Shown here one piece after another: positions 1 through 63,700 of a stretch of 64,000 nucleotides of DNA. A model generated the notes under the pieces. That model saw nothing but the letters and a program-made list of their open reading frames with translations, ran no database searches and was not told the DNA's origin. The DNA is from Manis javanica. Taxonomy: Eukaryota > Chordata > Mammalia > Pholidota > Manidae. Made by a program: the position numbers and the translations under genes. The stretch lies in NCBI RefSeq assembly GCF_040802235.1, contig NC_133161.1, positions 108,207,001 to 108,271,000 on the forward strand, written 5' to 3'. Position 1 is the first letter of the stretch. Each line of letters begins with the position of its first letter.

Positions 1-1835
1 ACAAGTCACACTTAAAAGAAATTAAAGGGGACACTAACAAATAGAAACTCATCCCATGCTCATGGCTAGGAAGAATTAATATCGTCAAAATGGCCATCCT
101 GCCCAAAGCAATATACAGATTCGATGCAATCCCTATCAAATTACCAGCAACATTCTTCAATGAACTGGAACAAATAATTCAAAAATTCATATGGAAACAC
201 CAAAGACCCCGAATAGCCAAAGCAATCCTGAAAAAGAAGAAGTAGGGGGGATCTCACTCCCCAACTTCAAGCTCTACTACAAAGCCACAGTAATCAAGAC
301 AATTTGGTACTGGCACAAGAACAGAGCCACAGACCAGTGGAACAGATTAGAGACTCCAGAAATTAACCCAAACACATATGGTCAATTAATATTTGATAAA
401 GGAGCCATGGACATACAATGGCAAAATGACAGTCTCTTCAACAGATGGTGCTGGCAAAACTGGACAGCTACATGTAGGAGAATGAAACTGGACCATTGTC
501 TAACACCATATACAAAGGTAAACTCAAAATGGATCAAAGACCTGAATGTAAGTCATGAAACCATTAAACTCTTGGAAGAAAACATAGGCAAAAACCTCTT
601 AGACATAAACATGAGTGACCTCTTCTTGAACATATCTCCCCAGGCAAGGAAACCAACAGCAAAAATGAGCAAGTGGGACTACATTAAACTGAAAAGCTTC
701 TGTACAGTGAAAGACACCATCAATAGCACAAAAAGGAACCCTACAGTATGGGAGAATATATTTGAAAATGACAGATCCGATAAAGGCTTGACGTCCAGAA
801 TATATAAAGAGCTCACACGCCTCAACAAACAAAAAACAAATAACGCAATTAAAAAATGAGCAGAGGAACTGAACAGACAGTTCTCTAAAAAGGAAATACA
901 GATGGCCAACAGACACATGAAAAGATGCTCCACATTGCTAATTATCAGAGAAATGCAAATTAAAACTACAATGAGGTATCACCTCACACCAGTAAGGATG
1001 GCTGCCATCCAAAAGACAAACAACAACAAATGTTGGCGAGGCTGTGGAGAAAGGGGAACCTTCCTACACTGCTGGTGGGAATGTAAATTAGTCCAACCAT
1101 TGTGGAAAGCAGTATGGAGGTTCATCAAAATGCTCAAAACAGACCTACCATTTGACCCAGGAATTCCACTCCTAGGAATTTACCCTAAGAAAGGCATCAA
1201 GTTTGAGAAAGACAGATGCACCCCTATGTTTATCACAGCACTATTTACAATAGCCAAAAATTGGAAGGAACCTAAATGTCCTTCAGTAGATGAATGGATA
1301 AAGATGTGGTACATATACATAATGGAATACTACTCAGCCATAAGAAGAGGGAAAATCCTACCATTTGCAGCAACATGGATGGAGCTGGAGAGTATTATGC
1401 TCAGTGAAATAAGCCAAGTGGAGAAAGAGAAATACTAAACGATTTCACTCATCTGAGGAGTATAAGAACAAAGGAAAAATTGAAGGAACAAAACAGCAGC
1501 GGTATTACAGAATCCAAAAATGGACTAACAGGTACCAAAGGGAAAGGAACTGGGGAGGATGGGTGGGCAGGGAGGGATAAGGGGGGGGAGAAGAAAGGGG
1601 GTATTAAGATTAGCATGCATAGGGGGGGAGGGAGAAAGGGGAGGGAGGGCTGTGCAACACAGTGAGGACAAGTAGTGATTCTAAAACCTTTTGCTATGTT
1701 GATAGACAGTGACTGTAATGTGGTTTTTAGGGGGACTTGGTATATAGGGGAGAGCATAGTAAACACAGTATTCTTCATGTAAGTGTAGATTAAAGATTAA
1801 AAAAAGGAAAAAAAAAGAAAAAGAAAGAAAAGGGG
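1..1835 (+). mobile_element. LINE-1 3' part: end of ORF2, 3' UTR and A-rich tail
   Basis: The translation matches the L1 ORF2 C-terminal region ([21 protein letters not shown], then the GIYPK and EYYSAIRR segments near the end). It ends at 1436-1438 and is followed by a 3' UTR with a G-rich purine tract (about 1550-1655) and an A-rich tail (1798-1835). ORF2 is broken twice. A frameshift lies near 225-245, where the upstream frame ([15 protein letters not shown]) gives way to the downstream one. A TGA at 857-859 stands where tryptophan is expected, and the frame continues open from there to the stop. The 5' end lies outside the window. It sits in an OGDH intron in antisense orientation. Confidence 0.93.
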
Positions 1836-13457: not shown

Positions 13458-13560
13458 CAAGTTTGTCTGTGGATGAGATAATGTCAGCGGGCACGGAGGA
13501 GTCCAGATCCGCATCCAAAATCCCAAGGGGGTCCAGCTGCGCTACATGATGCCCACGTAT
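13458..13560 (-). CDS. OGDH: OGDH alternative exon 4b (Ca2+-motif version)
   Basis: On the minus strand the acceptor CTTTCATAG is followed by 103 nt encoding [14 protein letters not shown], then [20 protein letters not shown], ending in phase 1 at donor GTGAGG. With exons 2 and 3 these are residues 138-171 of the precursor. The DADLD acidic motif (residues 153-157, about 113-117 of the mature protein) is the segment that I recall being assigned to Ca2+ sensing in human E1. The exon starts in phase 0, directly compatible with exon 3. It is mutually exclusive with 13,772-13,682: using both, or neither, shifts the frame. This is the version found in the main human isoform. Confidence 0.96.
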
Positions 13561-13681
13561 CTATGAAAGGGCCAGCGATGGAGGGAAGGACACACACAAA
13601 AGGACAGGAGAAAAAAAAAAGAGGGAAGGGGTAAAAAAAAGTAAAATTACATTAAATTAGCATTTACAGACTAATTCTCAC
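13561..13681 (-). promoter_or_regulatory. OGDH: Short intron between OGDH exons 4a and 4b, with an extended AG-free tract
   Basis: The intron is 121 nt (donor GTGAGA, acceptor CATAG). Read on the minus strand it contains no AG between its final TAG and about 13,670, roughly 107 nt, and it is dominated by long T/C runs (about 13,575-13,645). The best branch-point match is TGCTAAT at 13,662-13,656, only about 24 nt from the 4a donor and about 96 nt from the 4b acceptor. Such a distant branch point close to the upstream donor is a known way to block splicing between mutually exclusive exons (alpha-tropomyosin is the classic case). The long pyrimidine tract could also bind PTB-type regulators. 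Confidence 0.7.
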
Positions 13682-13772
13682 CCACGTTTGAAGAAACAGT
13701 TACTGGAGCATCATCAAAATTTACACAACTAATTCCGAGAGGATCAAGTTTTGCAATGTGGTGACCCCTGAC
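13682..13772 (-). CDS. OGDH: OGDH alternative exon 4a (version without the DADLD motif)
   Basis: On the minus strand the acceptor TTGCTTCCAG is followed by 91 nt encoding VRGHHIAKLDPLGI, then SCVNFDDAPVTVSSNV, ending in phase 1 at donor GTGAGA. The first 14 residues closely match exon 4b, as expected of an old tandem exon duplication; the second half is unrelated and lacks DADLD. It starts in phase 0 like 4b. If spliced to the 45-nt exon it gives SSNVDLAVFKDRL. The protein form carrying it would be expected to respond differently to Ca2+; that is inference from published work on human isoforms. Confidence 0.95.
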
Positions 13773-14951: not shown

Positions 14952-15143
14952 CTGGTAGGCTCTGATGAGAGACTGCACTGCCAGGTGGTCCTCCACCAGC
15001 TTGTCCACATTGGGCTGGGCTTCCACCAGGGGCTGCACTCGGGCTGCAGCCGACAGGAAGCCTGTGCCCAGGGGGAGTGGGCTCTGGTAGGCAGTGCCTG
15101 GGGGTGCCCCCGCATTGGTGTTTCGGAAAAAAATGTCCCATGA
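14952..15143 (-). CDS. OGDH: OGDH exon 3
   Basis: 192 nt, phase 0 to phase 0, encoding 64 residues (precursor 74-137) from [10 protein letters not shown] through [19 protein letters not shown] to SLIRAYQ. The acceptor is TTTTTCTTCAG and the donor is CAG|GTAAGG. This is the N-terminal region of E1 just before the alternative segment, a part of 2-oxoglutarate dehydrogenases involved in complex assembly. The sequence is highly conserved except for a variable patch ([14 protein letters not shown]). Confidence 0.97.
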
Positions 15144-25192: not shown

Positions 25193-25436
25193 CTTGTGCA
25201 CACTTTTGGGGTTGTCCAGCCAGGCAGAGTACATTTCCTCCACATAGTTGGAGCTAGTCCCACTGAGGAAGGGTTCAGCAGCAACAGGGGCTGCATAGCA
25301 GTGCACCTGCCCAAACGTCCTCATTGCTGCTCTGCTGTGTGAAAGTGCCTTCACAGTCTGGGAGGCCGTCAGCGGCCTCAGTTTAGTAGCACAAGTCCTT
25401 AAGTGGAACATTCCTATCCTGAGTGTCTCACACTGC
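25193..25436 (-). CDS. OGDH: OGDH exon 2 with start codon and mitochondrial presequence
   Basis: The acceptor is CTTCATGTGCAG and the exon starts at 25,436. After 25 nt of 5' UTR the ATG lies at 25,411-25,409, and coding continues to 25,193 (73 codons, phase 0, donor GTAAGG). The peptide starts [20 protein letters not shown] and continues through a basic, serine-rich presequence to [12 protein letters not shown] and [18 protein letters not shown]. It matches the OGDH N terminus closely. Residues 1 to about 40 are the matrix-targeting peptide, with many K/R/S/T and no acidic residue until after position 40. No upstream ATG occurs between the acceptor and the start. Confidence 0.97.
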
Positions 25437-33645: not shown

Positions 33646-36545
33646 GGGATCACGGGAAGATGGCGGCGTGAGTAGTTCAGAGGAAATCTCCCCAAAACAT
33701 ATATATTTATGAAAATACAATAAATACAACTATTACTAAAAGAGACACCAGTGGATGCAGTACAACAGCCAGGATACATCTACATCTGTGAGAACTCAAC
33801 ATCACATGAAGGGGGTAAGATACAAGCCACGGCCAGGCAGGACCCGAACACTCCCCCACCCCAGAACCCAGCGGGAAGAAAGGAGTTGGAACGGGGAGGG
33901 AGTGAAAGCCCAGGACTGCTAAACAAACAGCTCTAGAAATCCGCACCCGGAGCGCAGACACAAGGTGCACGGGGTGCTGGATATTAGAGAAACGGAAAAG
34001 CAAAACCTGTGGGCAGGTCCCCACAACCAGCGCCCCTGAGACAAAAGAAAAGGGAGTGCTTCCTGCAAGTCTTAAAGAGACAGGGACCCCATAGGTGGAC
34101 GAAGTTGTCCCAGCAGCTGGGAATACCGGGGAAACTTAGGTGCCCTAAACGGAGGCAGTGTAATTCTGAAGCCCCTCTGGCACTAAGCAGCCTGCCAGTC
34201 ATTCCTCAAACTGGCATGGACACTGACACACCGGCCCAATAGCAGGAGAGTGGAAGCACGTGCTGGGGACGGCAGCGCCGGAAGGGACTAGGAGCAGATT
34301 TGTGCGCCAGTGGCGCCAGACGGGACCAAGAGAGGCTTGTGCAAGATCGCAGTGGCGTGACCAAACAGCCCGGGGACACCTCGCATGCACCAGTGGCAGT
34401 GAAGCCAGAGGAGCCCAGTAGACGCCCGCGCTGGAGAGCCCCACGCGCACCTGCAGTGGAGCCAGAGGGAGCAGGTGGGCTCCCAGCAGCCAACCAGAAT
34501 CCCAGCCCAATGCACAGCCACCCGGGCCAGACCCAAAGGTCACTGCTGCCACACAGCTGCCCGGCAGGGGTGCTGCTAGCATGGAGGAGCACACCTGGCG
34601 TGCCTGCCACTCCCCACAGGGCTCCAAGCTGCTCTGACAGACACCCCGCCCACAGCAGCTTAGGGGACAAACCCAGTGGTGGCTCCAGGAGTGCGGGTAA
34701 CCGTCACAGGCAGCGGAGCAGAGCAAGGCATCCAGGAAGCAGGAAAGCACTTTCTTCTCCCAGCGGCCACACCCACAACCTGGCTACAGCCACCGCTATC
34801 CCCATGAAAAGGCAAAAAAAATTTAGTCCAGTCCAAGATAGTTCAAACAACACCTGAGAAAGGATCTGCAGAGGCAGACCTAACCAGTCTCCCTGAAAAA
34901 GAATTCAAAATAAAAATCATAAACATGCTGACAGAGCTGCAGAGAAATATGCAAGAGCTAAGGGATGAAGTCCAGAGGGAGATTACAGACGTACAGACGG
35001 AGATTACAGAAGTGAAACAAACTCTGGAAGGATTTATAAGCAGAATGGATAAGATGCAAGAGGGCATGGATGGAAGAGAAACCAGAGAACAGGAACTCAT
35101 AGAAGCTGACGCAGAGAGAGATAAAAGGATATCCAGGAATGAAACAATATTAAGAGAACTGTGTGACCGATCCAAAAGCAACAATATCCGCATTACAGGG
35201 GTACCAGAGGAAGAAGAGAAAAAGAGATAGAAAGTGTCTTTGAAGAAATAATTGCTGAGAACTTCCCAAACTGGGGGGGGGAAATAGTTGTTCAGACTAC
35301 AGAGGCACATAGAACTCCTGAGAGATGGGACCCAAAGAGGACAACACCAAGACACATAATAATTAAAACGGCAAAGATCAAGGACAGGGACAGAGTATTA
35401 AAGGCAGCCAGAGAGAGAAAAAAGGTCACCTACAAAGGAAAACCCATCAGGCTATCATCAGACTTCTCAACAGAAACCTTACAGGCCAGAAGAGAATGGC
35501 ATAATATATTTAATGCAATGAAACAGAAGGGCCTTGAACCAAGGATACTGTTCGTGCAAGGATAATCCAGCACGATTATCATTTAAATATGAAGGAGGGA
35601 TTAAACAATTGCCAGAGAAGCAAAAGTTGAGGGAATTTGCCTCCCACAAACCACCTCTACAGGGTTTCTTAGAGGGACTGCTCTAGATGGGAGCACTCCT
35701 AAAAAGAGCACAGAACAAAACACTCAACATATGAAGAATGGAGGAGGAGGAAAAAGAACAGAAAGAAATAATCATCAAACTGTGTTTATAACAGCTCAAT
35801 AAGTGAGTTAAGTCAGATAGTAAGGTAGTAAACAAGCTAACCTTGAACCTTTGGTAACCACGAATCTAAAGACTTCAATGGCAATAAGTACATATCTTTC
35901 AATAATCACCCTAAATGTAAATAGACTGAATGCACCAATCAAGAGACACACAGTAATAGAATGGATAAAAAAGCAAGACTCATCTATATGCTGCTTACAA
36001 GAAACTCACGTCAAACCCAAAGACAGGCACAGATTAAAAGTCAAGGGATGGAGAATGACTTTTCATGAAAACAACAGAGAGAAAAAAGCAGGTGTTGCAA
36101 GACTAGTATCAGACAAAACAGACTTCAAAACAAAGAAAGTAACAAGAGATAAAGAAGGACATTACATAATGATAAAGGGCTCAGTCCAACAAGAGGATAT
36201 AACCATTATAAACACATATGCATCCAATACAGGAGCACCAATATATGTGAAACAAATAGTAACAGAATTAAAGGAGGAAATAGAATGCAATGCATTTATT
36301 TTGGGAGACTTTAACACACCACTCACTCCAAAGGACAGATCCACCAGACAGAAAATAAGTAAGGACACAGAGGCACTGAACAACACACTAGAACAGATGG
36401 ACCTAACAGACATCTATAGAACTCTACAACCAAAAGCAACAGGATACACATTCTTCTCAAGTGCACATGGAACATTCTCCAGAATAGACCACATACTAGG
36501 CCACACAAAGAGCCTTAGTAAAATCCAAAAGATTGAAATCCTACC
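33646..36545 (+). mobile_element. LINE-1 5' part: promoter region, ORF1 and endonuclease domain
   Basis: It starts with GATCACGGGAAGATGGCGGCG, an L1 5' end. The GC-rich 5' UTR runs to about 34,800. ORF1 (about 34,805-35,560) shows a coiled coil (MLTELQRNMQELRDEVQREI) and the GVPEEEE and RLSSDFSTETLQARR blocks, broken by frameshifts near 34,850 and 35,230. ORF2 opens at 35,866 or just before with the endonuclease domain (TLNVNRLNAPI, LQETHV, ILGDFNTPL, RIDHILGH). Reading stays open to 36,561 but leaves L1 order after IQKIEILP, so the SDH catalytic triad and all reverse transcriptase are missing. It inserted into, or was joined to, the older LINE. Confidence 0.85.
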
Positions 36546-36981
36546 AATGGTGAAATACTGAATGCTTCTTTCTAAAATGGGAGCAATGCAAGGATGTCCA
36601 ATCTCACCCTTACCATTCAGCATAGTACTCAGAGTGGTAGCTAGTGCAATAAAACAATTAAAGGAACTAAAGTGAATTCAGATGAGACAGTAAAAAACTC
36701 CTGTTTGCAGATGACATGGTAGTCTATGTATAAAACCTCAAGAAATCTACAAAACCATAGAACAAACAAGTGAATTCATTAAGGCCACGGGATACAAGTT
36801 AAACATACAGAATTCAATTGTTTTACTTCTGTGTACTATCAAAGTACACATAAAACCCAAAAATTTAAAAAGGAAATACTTAGTGTAAGTCTAACAAAAC
36901 ATGCATGACTTACATGCTAAAAACTACAAAATGCTGATTTTAAAAAGTCTGGAGAGACATACTATTGAGGTACAGCACAGA
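36546..36981 (+). mobile_element. Ancient LINE, reverse-transcriptase region
   Basis: CAATGGTGAAATACTGAATGC, then GCAATGCAAGGATGTCCAAT (an RQGCPLSP-like motif) and TTTGCAGATGACATGGTAGT (the FADDM active-site motif), in L1 order with stops. This fits the continuation of the old element at 31,201-33,645. Confidence 0.75.
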
Positions 36982-39070: not shown

Positions 39071-41614
39071 GAAAAACAAACAATTTTTAAAATTAAAGTA
39101 TCATTAATATACAATCTTATGTTGGTTTCAAATGTACATCACAGTTCCCATGGTCCCAAATGGACCAAGACTTCCCATGATTAACTTATATTCTGATTGT
39201 GAATTGCTGTGCCCCTTTACGCCCCCTCACACCTTGCACCTATCCCAACCCCTCCCGCTGGGTAACCACTAGTCATTTCTCAGTGTCTATAAGTCTAATG
39301 CTGTTTTGTTCCTTATGTTTTGCTATAATATTCCACAAATAAGTGAAATCACATGGTACTTGTCTTTCTCTGCCTGCCTTATTTTACTTAGCATAATACC
39401 TGCTAGATGCATCAATATTGTTGCAAATAGCAGGATTTTTCTTTTTATGGCTCAATAACATACTACTGTGCATATGTACCAAATTTTCTTTATCCATTCA
39501 TCTATTGATGGACACTTAGGTTGCTTCCATGCTGGGGTACTGCAAATAGTGCAGCAATAAACATAAGGGGTGCATGTGTTTTTGTGAATCAGGGACTTTG
39601 TTTTCTTTGGGTAAATTCCTAGGAGTGGAATTACTGGGTCAAATGGCATTTCTATTTTTAGCTTTTTGAGGAACCTCCATACTGCTTTCCAGAGCAGTTG
39701 TACCAATTTGCATTCCAACCAACAGGATAGGAGGGTGCCCCTTTCTCTGAAACCTCTCCAGCATGTTGTTTTTCATTTTTTGAAGTGGCCATTCTAACCG
39801 ATGTGAGGTGTTATCTCATTGTGGTTTGAATTTGCATTTCCCTGATGATTGGTAATGTGGAAATCTTTTCATATGCCTGTTGGCCTTCTGAATTTCTTCT
39901 TTTACATCTGAATTTCTTCTTTGGAGAAGTGTCTGTTCACCTCCTCTGCCCACATTTGAATTGTCTTATTTGTTTTTTGTTTGTTGAGGTGCATGAGCTC
40001 TTTATATATTTTGGATGTCAACCCCTTACCACATGTCATTTATGAATATATTCTCCCATACTGTAGGATGTCTTTGTATCCTGATGGTGTCCTTTGCTGT
40101 ACAGAAGCTTTTTAGTTTGATATAGTCCCACTTGTTCATTTTTGCTTTCATATTCCTTGCCCGGGGTGATATGTTCATGAAGAAGTTGCTCATATTTATG
40201 TCCAAGAGATTTTTGCCTATGTTTTTTTCTAAGGGTTTTATGGTTTCATGACTTACATTCAGGTCTTTCATCCATTTGAGTTTACTTTTGTGTATGGGGT
40301 TAGATAATCATCCAGTTTCTTTCTCTTATATGTAACTGTCTAGTTTTTCTAACACCAACTGTTGAAGAGGCTGTCATTTCTCCATTGTATATACATGGCT
40401 CCTTTATTGTATATTAATTGATCATATATACTTGGGTTTATATCTGGGCTCTCTAATCTGTTCTATTGGTCTATGGGTCTGTTCTTGTGCCAGTACCAAA
40501 TTATCTTGATTACTGTGGCTATGCAGTAGAGCTTGAAGTCAGGGAGTGTAATTCCACCCATTTTATTCTTCCTTCTCAGGATTGCTTTGGCTATTCGGGG
40601 TCTTTTGTGGTTCCATACGAATTTTGGAACAATTTGCTCTAGTTCATTGAATAATGCTGTTGGTATTTTGATAGGGATTGCATTGAATGTGTAGAGTGCT
40701 TTAGGCAGGATGGCCATTTTGACTATTAATTCATCCTATCCAGGAGGACAGGATGTGTTTCCATTTATTGGTATCTTCTTTAATTTCTCTCATGAATTTC
40801 TTGTAGTTTTAAGAGTATAAGTCTTTCACTTCCTTGGCTATGTTGATTCCTAGGTATTTTATTCTTTTGGATGCAACTGTGAATGGAATTGTTTTCCTGA
40901 TTTCTATTTCTGCTAGTTCATGGTTAGTGTATAGGAATGCAACATATTTCTGTCTATTAATTTTGTATCCTGCAAGTTTACTGAAATCAGATGTTAGATC
41001 TAGTAGTTTTGGAGTGGATTCTTTAGGGTTTTTTATATACAATATGTCATCTGCAAACAGGGACAGTTTAAGTTCTTCCTTGCCAATCTGGATGCCTTTT
41101 ATTTTTTTGTGTTGTCTGATTGCTGTGGCTAGGACCTCCGGAACTATGTTGAATCGAAGTGGGAAGAGTGGGCATCCCTGTCTTGTTCCTGATCTTAAAG
41201 GAAAAGCTTTCAGCTTCTTGCTGTTAAGTATAATGTTGGCTGTGGGTTTGTCATATATGGCCTTTATTACATTGAGGTACTTGTCCTCTATACCCATTTT
41301 GTTGAGAGTTTTTATCATGAATGGATATTGAATTTTATCAAATGCTTTTTCAGCATCTATGGAGATGATCATGCAGTTTTTGTCCTTTTTGTTGAAGTAG
41401 TGGATGATGTTGATGGATTTTTTTTAATGTTGAGCCATCCTTGCATTCCTGGGATGAATCCCAGTTGATCATGATAGATAATCTTTTTGATGTGTTTTTG
41501 AATTTGGTTTGCTAATATTTTGTTGAGTATTTTTCCTTCTATGTTCATCAGGGATATTGGTCTGTAATTTTCTTTTTCTGTGGTGTCTTCACGTTGTTTT
41601 GGTATTACTGCTTT

Positions 41615-47690: not shown

Positions 47691-48214
47691 ATGGAAAGTG
47701 CTCTCAAAAAAATAATTAGGATACTTTGATCTTCCTTCCAACTTTCCAAGAGCCAGTCTGCACCTAATTTGCAAAGCTAGAACAGTTGTCATATTTCCAT
47801 AAACCTGCACAAAAAACTGGTTTGAATGTTGCACCTCTTGCCACACAGCAAACAAGGCTTCATTCCAGGACATTCATCCTAAAGCTGCTCAGAGAGTGTA
47901 CCTGGAAGTGGGCCTCCACTCCCTTCTTCAAAGTACAGAACTACAGAACAAAGGCACAGAGAAACCCCAAGACATTTCACAACTGGTGCCTCAGAGTCAT
48001 CTCTCCTCTGTTCTGGGCAAAGGGCAGAGATAGCAGGTTGCAGGTTCCTGTCAACTCAGTGCCTGCCACCGGTATGCAACTCACTTAAGTCACACAGCTT
48101 TGTGAAAGGGAAAAGGTGGTGTTCCCTCCAGGAAATGAGCTACATCTAAACATGGGCTACCACACCTCTGGAAGAATGAGTATGGTGGAACCCTGTAGAG
48201 CATACACGACCATC
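47691..48214. other. OGDH intron 1, unique sequence
   Basis: No exon, repeat family or RNA gene recognised. Confidence 0.6.
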
Positions 48215-48590
48215 TAGGTTGTCACCCTAAACAGCACGCAAGGAGATGATGAGTAGTACAGTGGGTGTTGCAGAGTAATCTATTCCTTTAGGGTATCACC
48301 CCAAGGAGCACAGGAAGAAGGATGGGTACAGCAGGGTGCTGAGTACAGTGGGGTACTGAGCATGAGTACATGGGCGCTGGAGGGTATTCTGCTCAAGGGA
48401 TCACCCCAGGAGCGTGAGGATAGGTAGGGTGGCATACTGAGCACGGTGGGTACTGCGAACGTGGGGTGGTGAAGAGTATTCTACTCAAAGGCGTCTCCCC
48501 AGGAGCTCAGGACAGATGGGTATGGTGGGCATTGAGTACGTGGGGAGTTCTCTTCAAGGGCGTCACCCCAGGAGCGCAGCGAAGGCCAGA
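48215..48590 (+). repeat. Degenerate minisatellite, five units of about 69-103 bp
   Basis: Units are anchored on a TCACCCCAGGAGC-like core at 48,222, 48,296, 48,391, 48,494 and 48,563 (spacing 74, 95, 103 and 69). Each is followed by purine-rich sequence and GAGTAC/GGGTAC motifs and a TTCT-CTCAAGGG lead-in. It lies about 0.5 kb inside intron 1 from OGDH exon 1. Confidence 0.75.
48366..48478 (+). repeat. 113-bp segment duplicated on the other side of the OGDH promoter
   Basis: Identical, base for base, to 49,384-49,496. It spans the end of one minisatellite unit and most of the next. Confidence 0.95.
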
Positions 48591-48599
48591 ATAGGCGCC

Positions 48600-49340
48600 G
48601 ACCCCGCCCCATACTCTAGGCGGGCACCACCCAAAGCCCGCAGCCGCTTCAAGGTCGGGCAGCCCCTCCGTCCGCCCTGCGGGTAAAGGACACCGCCGGG
48701 CGGCACACGTGACGCCCCCTTGACCTTGGGGGTCACCCCGGCGTGCCCATTTGCTCACATCCGCCGGCCGCCACAGCCAATGCCCCGCCGCTCCGCGCTC
48801 CTCTTGACACCCGCGCGCGCCCGCAACCGCCAATCTCCGCCAGTCAGGCGGGGCCCGCCGGGTCATTGGCCGCCACGCACGTCCGTCAGGTCCCGACCGG
48901 CCCACTTCCCCTCCACAGCCCGCTCCATCCGGCTTCACTCCTTGTCACCAAGGCGCCGGCGACAACGAAGGCGCGGCGGTTTGGCCCTCTGCCGCGACTC
49001 CCGCCGTCTGCCCGACAGATGCGGAACCTCTCCGACCGGGCGGGGCCCGGCAGCAGCGCGCACTTACCTGTCTTGGACTCGGCTCCACCCGAAAGAGGAT
49101 CCGATGCCCCGCTCCGGGTCTCCAAACTCTCGACCCCGCCCCAGCGTGTGGCGTCAGCACGCAGCCCCGCCCCTGCTGGGGTCGACGTCACTGAGTCGCG
49201 CCGGCTGGGGCGGGGCGTGGGTTGTGGGCGGGCTCCGCCGGGTGGTTGGGGAGTGAGAGTGCCCCAGGGGGTCAACGGGCTGGGCGAGTGCGGGTGCCGC
49301 TGCTTTGAGGCGGTACTTCCCTGCGGCTGAGGACAACGGC
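48600..49340 (-). promoter_or_regulatory. OGDH: CpG island and promoter of OGDH
   Basis: GC-rich and CpG-dense in contrast to both flanks. On or near the minus-strand start region there are GC boxes (49,132-49,142, 49,163-49,174, 49,206-49,215), CRE-like GTGACGTC (49,191-49,184) and TGACGC (49,157-49,152). In the part downstream of exon 1 there are an E-box CACGTG (48,706-48,711), a nuclear-receptor-type TGACCTTGG (48,721-48,729) and CCAAT motifs (48,777-48,781, 48,830-48,834, and reversed at 48,865-48,869). There is no TATA box, as is usual for a housekeeping mitochondrial gene. Motif calls are by eye. Confidence 0.85.
49068..49180 (-). other. OGDH: OGDH exon 1 (5' UTR, start approximate)
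   Basis: A consensus donor AAGACAG|GTAAGTG has its exon edge at 49,068. The sequence upstream on the minus strand is GC-rich and without ATG, which fits the non-coding first exon known for OGDH in other mammals. The transcription start is not visible; 49,180 is a guess based on the GC boxes and CRE-like site. Confidence 0.7.
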
Positions 49341-55849: not shown

Positions 55850-56059
55850 GAGTCGGCGCATGCGCACTCTGAGCCGGGCCGCGCAGCGTCACCTGGAAGT
55901 GCGGCCCAGCAACGCTCACGGAAACACTGCGGAGGTTGGGGGATTCCCGGCGTCACAGCGCGCGCGCCCCCGTCCGACTGAGAGGCACCGTCAGGCAGCG
56001 GAGCGCATGCGCGTCGGGCACGGGCGTGCGTTGGCAGGTGTCGCCGGCCGCGGGCGGTG
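55850..56059 (+). promoter_or_regulatory. TMED4: TMED4 promoter and 5' UTR in a CpG island (island extends to about 56,450)
   Basis: An abrupt change from AT-rich to CpG-dense sequence at about 55,850. Two perfect NRF1-type palindromes, GCGCATGCGC, lie at 55,856-55,865 and 56,003-56,012, 147 bp apart. No TATA box. The start site is not visible, so the second palindrome may be promoter or 5' UTR. Confidence 0.8.
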
Positions 56060-56060
56060 A
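56007..56060 (+). promoter_or_regulatory. Possible upstream ORF overlapping the TMED4 start codon
   Basis: ATG inside the second NRF1 palindrome opens a 17-codon frame ([17 protein letters not shown]) whose TGA (56,058-56,060) overlaps the TMED4 ATG (56,060-56,062) as TGATG. It matters only if transcription starts upstream of 56,007. Confidence 0.5.
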
Positions 56061-57461
56061 TGGCGCATCGGGCGCTGCTGCTGCTCGCGCTGTGCGCGGC
56101 GGGCACCTGGGGGCTCTACTTCCATATCGGCGAGACAGAGAAGCGCTGCTTCATCGAGGAAATCCCGGATGAGACCATGGTCATCGGTCAGGCGGGGCGA
56201 GGGTCGGGCGCAGCGTGTCCCCGCCAGCGCAGAGCTGGGCGGAGCAGCGGTCGTGAATGCTCTGTCTGCCCGCAGGAAACTACCGCACGCAGATGTGGGA
56301 CAAACAGAGGGAGGTCTTCCTGCCCTCGACCCCCGGCCTGGGCATGCATGTGGAGGTGAAAGACCCCGAAGGCAAGGTAGGGCCGCGTCGGCCGGCGCTC
56401 AGGCCCTCGGGGACGCCCGGATCTAGTGCGCGCAGGCGGACTTGCCCTGACTGCTGTGTTGCAGGTGGTGCTGTCGCGGCAGTACGGCTCCGAGGGCCGC
56501 TTCACCTTCACCTCCCACACCCCTGGCGACCATCAGATTTGCCTGCACTCCAACTCTACTAGGATGGCTCTCTTCGCAGGTGGCAGACTGGTAAGTTTTA
56601 TCTTTGGTCACAGCTCAAACTTGGCTCCGAAGTTTTGAGTTATTGTGACTTTGTGGCACAGTCACAATTAGGGAGACAGATGTTGCTTCTCCATCCCTAA
56701 GCTAGGGACAAGAGTGGGTCACATTGCCTGGAACACACATTTGGAGGCCTCAGTACTCAAAACGCCATAACCTGTGAGCTTTGGGGATCCAATTCTGTTT
56801 TTTTTCTAGCGTGTGCATCTAGACATACAGGTTGGGGAGCATGCCAACAACTACCCTGAGATTGCTGCCAAGGATAAGCTGACCGAGCTGCAGCTCCGAG
56901 CCCGCCAGTTGCTTGATCAGGTGGAACAGATTCAGAAGGAGCAGAATTACCAGAGGGTAAGGGCACATCGCTGCACTCAGACATGGCAGGTGACCTTTAA
57001 AGCCACTACACCACACCTTCTGCTTGCAGCTGTCCCTGTTTGGGTGATCAGCTGTTCAGAGAATGGAATGGAGTTTATCAGACTAGATAGCTGTTTTTAA
57101 ACTCTATAGAATAAAATGAAGAGGACATTTCCTTATCTAGCAAGGCCATTGCCTACCTCTTTACCTTGGGATCTGCGTTGAGCAGTAGGAGTGTGATTTC
57201 TGTCCAGGTAGAGCTGCTTGTGGATGAATGGGTGCATGGGAGAGAGAGGCCTCCCAACAGCCAGGACCACCTCTCCTACATGTTTAATCCTGGGTTCATT
57301 GTCATACACAGTATCGTGAAGAGCGCTTCCGTCTTACCAGCGAGAGCACCAACCAGAGGGTCCTGTGGTGGTCCATTGCCCAGACCATCATACTCATCCT
57401 CACTGGCATCTGGCAGATGCGTCACCTCAAGAGCTTCTTTGAAGCCAAGAAGCTGGTGTAA
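56060..57461 (+). CDS. TMED4: TMED4, p24-family transmembrane cargo receptor, complete
   Basis: Five coding exons: 56,060-56,186, 56,276-56,376, 56,465-56,590, 56,810-56,956 and 57,312-57,461. All introns are GT-AG (first donor GTCAGG) and the product is 216 aa. p24 proteins cycle between ER and Golgi and sort GPI-anchored and other cargo into COPI/COPII vesicles. Visible parts: signal peptide (1-18, [15 protein letters not shown]); GOLD domain with cysteines C30 and C102 and a sequon NST at 106-108; coiled-coil region (about 140-170); membrane span (about 185-203); cytosolic tail with FF and C-terminal KKLV, a COPI/dilysine-type signal. It matches human TMED4 almost throughout but starts at the second human methionine, because the first is TTG here and the frame between them is shifted. 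Confidence 0.97.
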
Positions 57462-60717: not shown

Positions 60718-63700
60718 ATGGCTGATCCGGTGGTGTTGGGATTCGAACACATGGGTCTGGACCCCCGGCTCCTGCAGGTACCGGGGAGGGTTGGGGGAAG
60801 GCCACACCGTCGTGGAGGGCACGGCAGGGCAGTGCGCTGTCTGAGCTGCCTCTCTTCTCCTAGGCCATCACCGACCTGGGTTGGTCGCGACCCACACTCA
60901 TTCAGGAGAAGGCCATCCCACTGGCCTTGGAAGGGAAGGACCTCCTCGCCCGAGCCCGCACGGGCTCGGGGAAGACGGCCGCCTATGCCCTTCCGATGCT
61001 GCAGCTGCTGCTCCGCAGGAAGGCGGTGCGTCGTGGGAGGAGCCGCCGTGGGCGGCCTGCGGAACCTGGGCTGTGTGGTGGCGCTTAGGGCTGGAATTCA
61101 GGTTCCTTGGGCACAGTCTCCGCTACCACCATTTCTGCATAATTTTGAGCAAATGAATTTCTCCTCGTTCTGTAGAAAGTGGGCCCATTTCTTTCGCTAG
61201 CTTGTAGAATTACTGTGAAACTGCAGTGCCTTACTGGTACATTTTAAGTAGCTACATAACTATAAAGTAGTAAGCTGTTCTTTTTGAGGGCCAGTCCCTG
61301 AGGAAAGATTACCTTCTATTCTGTGTTTTGAGGTGGGTAGATGTAAGCAAGGAGTTGATCCGAATACAGCTAAATTGTTGTTTTGAAGTCACAAGAGCTG
61401 GGTCAGATTGCCTGGAAGAGGTAGAGAAAAGCATTAGGTGGCCATGATGATACAAAACTGACTGGCTGACGTCTTTCATTTGTACTCCTGCAGACAGGCC
61501 CTGCAGTAGAGCAGGCTGTGAGAGGTCTTGTGCTTGTGCCCACCAAGGAACTGGCACGGCAGGCCCAGTCCATGATTCAGCAGCTGGCTGCCTACTGTGC
61601 TCGAGACATCCGGGTGGCCAATGTCTCAGCCACTGAAGATGCAGCCTCTCAGAGGTGGGTGAGAGCAACAGAGCTGTAGGCAATAAGGCTTCATAGCAAT
61701 GTGAGATTGGGGTTGTGTGCAGTAGGACAGAGGGCTGGTCTGGGGTGAGGTCCCAGCTGCCACCTTCTCTCCAATGTCCACAGAGCTGTGCTGATGGAGA
61801 AGCCTGATGTAGTGGTGGGGACCCCGTCTCGAATCTTAAACAGCCTGCAGCAAGACAGCTTGAAGCTGCAAGACTCCTTGGAGCTGCTGGTGGTGGATGA
61901 GGCTGATCTTCTTTTCTCCTTTGGCTTTGAGGAGGAGGTCAAGAGTCTTCTCTGGTAGGGAAGAGGCAGATGGGGTTGTGAATAGACATGAGAACCTGGA
62001 GTGGGGTAGCCAGGAACAGAGACCCTTGGAGCTGGACTCTGATGGGGCTCTGTTTCGTTTTAGTCATTTGCCCCGAATTTACCAGGCTTTTCTGATGTCA
62101 GCTACTTTTAATGAAGATGTACAAGTGCTCAAGGAGCTGGTACTGCATAACCCGGTAAGGGCACCATGGAAATGTCTTGAACCACTCATGTATGATACTC
62201 AGGATTTGATCCTCCTTCAAAGGAACACTTTAGTATTTTGGGAGGACAGTCATTACTGGTTTAGTCTCCCTGGTTCTGAGGTACTAGAAGCTGGTAGCTG
62301 TCAACATGTCCCCCAACCATCTAAAATCACTACTTAGTTTCAGATATTCTTTGCAGGGAATTCAAACCATGCTTCATGGAACCACCTGAGCAAGGACCCT
62401 GCACTCTCCTGGAAGTTTTTGCTGCAGGGCCTTCCTTTGCACTTCAGTCACATGTGTGTTTCTCCCTCTTCTGGCCCCTTATGCTTTCTATGTAGTTTTA
62501 TGTCATCTGTTCACACAGCCATGAGGGGCCTTACACTGACACATTTGTGTTATTGGCTGGTCAGTGGCTTGTAGTAGCATTTCTGTTTTTTATTCTTTCC
62601 TGACCACAGGCCTGTCCTCCCCTAGGTTACCCTCAAGCTACAGGAGTCCCAGCTGCCAGGGCCAGACCAATTAGAGCAGTTTCAGGTGGTCTGTGGAACA
62701 GAGGAGGAGAAGTTTCTATTACTGTATGCCCTACTCAAGTTGTCTTTGATTCGGGGCAAGTCTCTTCTCTTTGTCAACACTCTTGAGCGGAGCTACCGGC
62801 TGCGCCTGTTTTTGGAGCAATTCAGCATCCCCACCTGTGTGCTCAATGGGGAGCTTCCACTGCACTCCAGGTATGCACAGCTGGTTTCAGGGTGGGGTGG
62901 TTGGAGGTAGGGATTGCAAAGGGGACACGGCTGATGTTCCTGCTTCTTAAGCTCTCAGGCCTGGCTCTCTTGACCAGCTCTCTGACTATCTCCTTCATGA
63001 TTTTGAGGCACCTGTTACTCCATCTTCAACTGAGGAAGTTGAGGTGCAAATATTAAGCTGGGAAGGAGTTTAAGGAGAGGGTAGGGTCAGAGCATGGTGG
63101 TCACCACAGTGTTGTGGGAGCGGCCTCCAGTCTGCTCTTGGACCTGACCCTCCCTTTGCTTTTGGGGCACAGATGCCACATCATCTCACAGTTCAACCAA
63201 GGCTTCTACGATTGTGTCATAGCGACTGATGCCGAAGTCCTGGGGGCCCCAGTCAAGGGCAGGCGTCGGGGCAAAGGACCCAAGGGGGACAGGTGAGTCC
63301 TCCCCAGGGAGATCTGCCTCCAACCTTTCAGAAGACAAAACCAGGTGCCAGAGCAGGAAGCCAGACATTCCAGGCCTGGCTGCTAGCATCATGCACAGAG
63401 CCCTGGCTCAGCTGCCTGGGTGGTTGGCTCACTGTCCTGCAAGGGACACAGCCGAGCCTGCTTTTGGGTGTGCAGCTATGACTTGTTGGAGGGAAAAGGG
63501 AACCTCCAGTCTCTGTCTGCTTGAGAGATTGGCTGGCCAGGAGTGGTTCTCAGTTCTGTTGTTGCCCTAAGCTGAGGTCAGGGCAAGGGTTTGATCCCCA
63601 CTGCCACCCCAGCTCCTGGACAGTTCTGACATTAGTGTCTTAGATGTGTCAGGGTCTTGTGGTTCCATACAAGGCTTTTTTAATAAATCTTACTGATTAA

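Follow-up and report, generated by a model that had tools for sequence, protein, structure and literature searches.

Intron 4a of OGDH in Manis javanica carries a distant branch-point motif cluster that fits the published steric model of exon 4a/4b exclusivity

OGDH exons and intron 4a in the window

The window, a 64-kb stretch of Manis javanica DNA (64,000 nt), encodes part of OGDH on its minus strand. When the window was searched by tblastn with a human OGDH protein sequence, four matches were obtained, corresponding to exons 2, 3, 4a, and 4b (Table 1), and no OGDH match was detected in the window 3′ of exon 4b (E 0.01). Intron 3, located between exons 3 and 4a, is 1179 nt long. Exon 4a is bordered by the acceptor TTGCTTCCAG/GTC and the donor GTGG/GTGAGA. 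The translation of exon 4b was identical to the solved OGDH chains 7wgr_A and 8i0k_A at 34 of 34 residues. The DADLD motif is present in exon 4b and absent from exon 4a; the window therefore contains the duplicated exon pair 4a/4b with this motif in 4b only. The intron of 121 nt that the initial annotation had placed between the two exons was confirmed, and it has GT-AG borders. The choice between 4a and 4b sets the calcium response of 2-oxoglutarate dehydrogenase (PMC7969005), and the geometry of this intron therefore matters for tissue energy supply.

Table 1. Positions of OGDH features in the window. Plus-signed numbers count from the first nucleotide of intron 4a.
Feature	Position	Strand	Description
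OGDH exon 2, coding part	25193..25411	-	upstream of exon 3
OGDH exon 3	14952..15143	-	192 nt, upstream of 4a
OGDH exon 4a	13682..13772	-	91 nt, encodes VRGHHIAKLDPLGISCVNFDDAPVTVSSNV plus one base
OGDH intron 4a	13561..13681	-	121 nt, GT-AG, GTGAGA...TTTCATAG
OGDH exon 4b	13458..13560	-	103 nt, 34 aa plus one base; Ca2+ motif DADLD
AG-free zone	13563..13670	-	108 nt, +12..+119
TGCTAAT, branch-point candidate	13656..13662	-	+20..+26, adenines +24/+25 (A+25 = 13657)
Distant branch-point motif cluster	13642..13658	-	TAA ending at +25, +30, and +35, TTA ending at +40; adenines at 13657, 13652, 13647, and 13642
Adenine-free pyrimidine-rich tract	13580..13631	-	+51..+102, part of the published megaPPT
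5′ arm of predicted 9-bp stem	13675..13683	-	exon -2 to intron +7, contains the 4a donor; prediction
3′ arm of predicted 9-bp stem	13629..13637	-	+45..+53, start of the pyrimidine tract; prediction

Candidate branch points and the AG-free zone

The initial annotation estimated that about 107 nt before the 4b acceptor are free of AG, and our count gave 108 nt. The only AG dinucleotides of intron 4a are at +4, at +10, and at the acceptor itself (+120). The AG-free zone is composed largely of pyrimidines (55 T and 29 C of 108 nt), and a pyrimidine-rich tract reduces AG content anyway. For one given AG, a geometric estimate of an AG-free gap this long was 3.7e-4, with a total of 4557 AG dinucleotides on the minus strand of the window. 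AG-free gaps of at least 107 nt occurred eight times on this strand (that of intron 4a included) and five times on the plus strand. For one given acceptor, an AG-free stretch of this size is rare, yet it is not unique in the window, and because of these other gaps it was rejected as stand-alone proof of a distant branch point. The lack of adenine in +51..+102 was more telling than the AG-free length, as adenine-free runs of at least 52 nt were found only once among 11747 runs on the minus strand and once among 12463 runs on the plus strand.

A cluster of branch-point motifs is located less than ~50 nt from the 4a donor. It includes TGCTAAT, which was said to lie ~24 nt from this donor and was indeed placed there. 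The adenine at +50 (TTTACC), right at the ~50-nt steric limit, might also serve as a branch point. Only one adenine, that at +103 (-19), is placed relative to the 4b acceptor where branching normally takes place, and its context, CTCCATC, has no T at -2. As this context is poor, we rejected the idea that branching occurs mainly at a canonical site close to the acceptor. The adenines at +118 and +120 are too near the acceptor for branching. Upstream of exon 4a, a TTAAC motif has its adenines at -27/-26, and this would fit the ordinary 4a branch point, which was mapped in human 27 or 28 nt upstream of 4a (PMC7969005).

Agreement with human OGDH and the probable basis of exclusivity

The steric branch-point mechanism is already known for OGDH intron 4a, although the initial annotation was aware of no such description. 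Distant branch points near the intron-4a donor, at distances of around 50 nt or less, were predicted in 2018 (PMC6093180), and experiments in human cells followed in 2021 (PMC7969005), with both branch-point mapping and mutagenesis. OGDH is also among the examples in a 2022 report in which distant branch points enforce the exclusive use of duplicated exons (PMC9177970). Branch-point use, exclusivity, and regulators of this intron have thus been established in human cells by others (PMC7969005), for the same gene, intron, and exons as in the Manis javanica window.

By lariat RT-PCR in DBR1-deficient cells, with 132 informative clones out of 164 sequenced, the human intron-4a branch points were mapped at +25, +31, +36, and +41 (PMC7969005). 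Branch-point mapping had been proposed in the initial annotation as a check of its reading, and these human sites, 25–41 nt from the donor with none near the 4b acceptor, are in line with it. The window and the human intron share the motif order TAA/TAA/TAA/TTA near the donor, followed by a long AG-free zone. The spacing differs slightly: the motifs after the first are 1 nt nearer to the donor here (+25, +30, +35, and +40) than in human, provided that the counting is the same. The intron length of 121 nt is within the 118–131 nt range given for birds and mammals in the same paper (PMC7969005), where conservation of the intron-4a arrangement across species is also reported. From the motifs, we infer that Manis javanica probably uses the same branch adenines as human.

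The single TGCTAAT put forward in the initial annotation is better replaced by a redundant cluster as the branch point. The site at dBP+25 was mapped in human, but it belongs to such a cluster, in which the mutation of a single distant branch point had no or only a minor effect (PMC7969005). The double branch-point mutant showed less 4b, and the triple mutant showed a further decrease, together with small amounts of the 4a+4b+ and 4a-4b- transcripts (PMC7969005).

The whole is best explained by a distant branch cluster with steric exclusivity, and we assign this reading of OGDH intron 4a a probability of roughly 95%. Exon 3 would be joined to 4a through the ordinary branch point ~27 nt upstream of 4a, and to 4b through the cluster of distant branch adenines, 25–40 nt from the 4a donor. 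U1 bound at this donor and U2 at the distant branch points would be too close to form a productive spliceosome across intron 4a, and 4a would therefore not be joined to 4b. The same conclusion, that the branch point is too near the 4a donor for 4a–4b splicing, had been drawn in the initial annotation and agrees with the human experiments, in which the proximity of the 5′ splice site and the branch point was named as the implicated mechanism of 4a/4b exclusivity (PMC7969005).

Joining the 91-nt exon 4a to the 103-nt exon 4b shifts the reading frame into a stop codon. Both the intron anatomy and this frame break are observed in the window. The frame break would also be expected if exclusivity were enforced not by sterics but by frame incompatibility together with NMD, that is, if 4a–4b joins were made and then destroyed. 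This is very improbable, because 'NMD-immune' endotherm OGDH constructs gave no out-of-frame transcripts (PMC7969005), and because the sole usual-distance adenine before the 4b acceptor, +103, has a poor context. Under steric exclusivity, the frame incompatibility of 4a+4b would instead act as a second safeguard, as is discussed in PMC7969005.

Transcripts joining 4a to 4b had been named in the initial annotation as evidence that would speak against its model. The wild-type human reporter produced neither 4a+4b+ nor 4a-4b- transcripts, but such unproductive isoforms were obtained from fish reporters and, to a lesser extent, from frog reporters (PMC7969005). The steric geometry is therefore not absolute in ectotherms. 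Overall, the interpretation of the intron-4a geometry given in the initial annotation is partly supported, and the window adds one more sequence that fits the published OGDH mechanism.

The long pyrimidine tract would be occupied by U-binding proteins, and these would tilt the choice between 4a and 4b. Such regulation depends on PTB in the exon choice of alpha-tropomyosin, a mutually exclusive case reportedly described by Smith and Nadal-Ginard in 1989; this gene and its exons are unrelated to those of OGDH. Unlike alpha-tropomyosin with its PTB, OGDH has TIA-1/TIAR and PUF60 as reciprocal regulators of 4a/4b, where TIA-1/TIAR, as well as RBM39, activate the 4a donor and PUF60 promotes 4b (PMC7969005). 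The T/C-rich tract had also been proposed as a PTB platform. PTBP1 does bind the region according to eCLIP, but a role as the 4a/4b switch is not borne out, as PTBP1 overexpression inhibits both exons (PMC7969005).

Predicted hairpin and the 4a donor

The sequence from exon 4a through the intron to exon 4b was predicted to fold into a hairpin with a 9-bp stem, in which the pair probabilities were 0.88–0.93. In this context, the predicted unpaired probability was 0.61–0.65 at +25, 0.95–0.96 at +30, 0.90 at +35, and 0.07–0.09 at +40. In the minimum-energy folds, both of the intron alone and with both exons, +25 was paired. The human branch-point hairpin also has a 9-bp stem, although the two stems may be different; its dBP+25 is fully exposed and its dBP+41 is paired (PMC7969005). 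The paired +40 and the open +30 and +35 behave in the prediction like their human counterparts or nearly so, whereas +25 is only partly open here.

The 5′ arm of the predicted stem suggests that the branch-point hairpin might also bury the 4a donor in its 9-bp base. Donor masking of this kind would be a layer added to the steric model and not an alternative to it, so the odds of the two need not sum to one. We consider it rather doubtful. In six contexts that included exon 4a sequence, the predicted unpaired probability of the donor (-2..+6) was 0.00–0.03. When the GTRAGA sites of both strands were compared (75, counting the 4a donor), this donor was the most buried (0.003, compared to 0.096 for the next site and a median of 0.37). 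Its burial was reached by 20 of 2000 dinucleotide shuffles of +7..+121, and by 13 of 2000 when only +41..+121 was shuffled. The predicted cost of opening the donor was 9.6–10.1 kcal/mol in three contexts.

These values are weakened by the fact that the test was post hoc, chosen once the fold was seen. In its first version, with the donor taken as -3..+6, 24 of 300 shuffles qualified, and a looser threshold of 0.05 unpaired was passed by 253 of 2000 (+7..+121) and 208 of 2000 (+41..+121) shuffles. The 4b donor was fairly buried too (0.191 unpaired). The intron alone has no excess stability (z was -0.20, and 81 of 200 shuffles were at least as stable), and with both exons the excess is small (z was -1.18, with 9 of 100 shuffles at least as stable). 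In addition, U1 and helicases are able to open stems.

The idea that a protein bound to +41..+50 simply releases the 4a donor was not supported in silico. When +41..+50 was held open, the donor re-paired elsewhere and was only 0.12–0.27 unpaired, which speaks against simple release by a U-tract binder.

The position of the donor inside the stem is not discussed in the examined sections of the main text of PMC7969005. In this main text, the wording 'sequester' or 'occlu' does not occur, and 'mask' occurs three times, with two of these uses concerning primer extension and RepeatMasker. Figure 6F of PMC7969005 may already depict the donor in the stem, and no priority is claimed. If donor masking is true, the 4a donor would be concealed by the very fold that displays the 4b branch points, and a structural layer would be added to the published sterics. 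The predicted masking of the donor by the branch-point hairpin is a checkable hint that the window provides.

Other features of the window

Transposon-like coding remnants, which we take to be L1-like, are located at 35851-36561 (+) and 40809-41372 (-). A transposon-like coding remnant at 191-859 (+) looks to us like a piece of L1 ORF2, and the ORF at 61897-62337 (+), on the strand opposite to OGDH, presumably resembles an exon of DDX56. Pfam assigned an endonuclease/exonuclease/phosphatase domain (PF03372) to the remnant at 35851-36561 and a reverse transcriptase domain (PF00078) to that at 40809-41372; no Pfam family was found in 191-859 (+) or in the ORF at 61897-62337 (+). Upstream of OGDH exon 2, the window contains G+C-rich stretches at 48001-49000 (0.611) and 56001-57000 (0.597), which could be CpG-island promoters.
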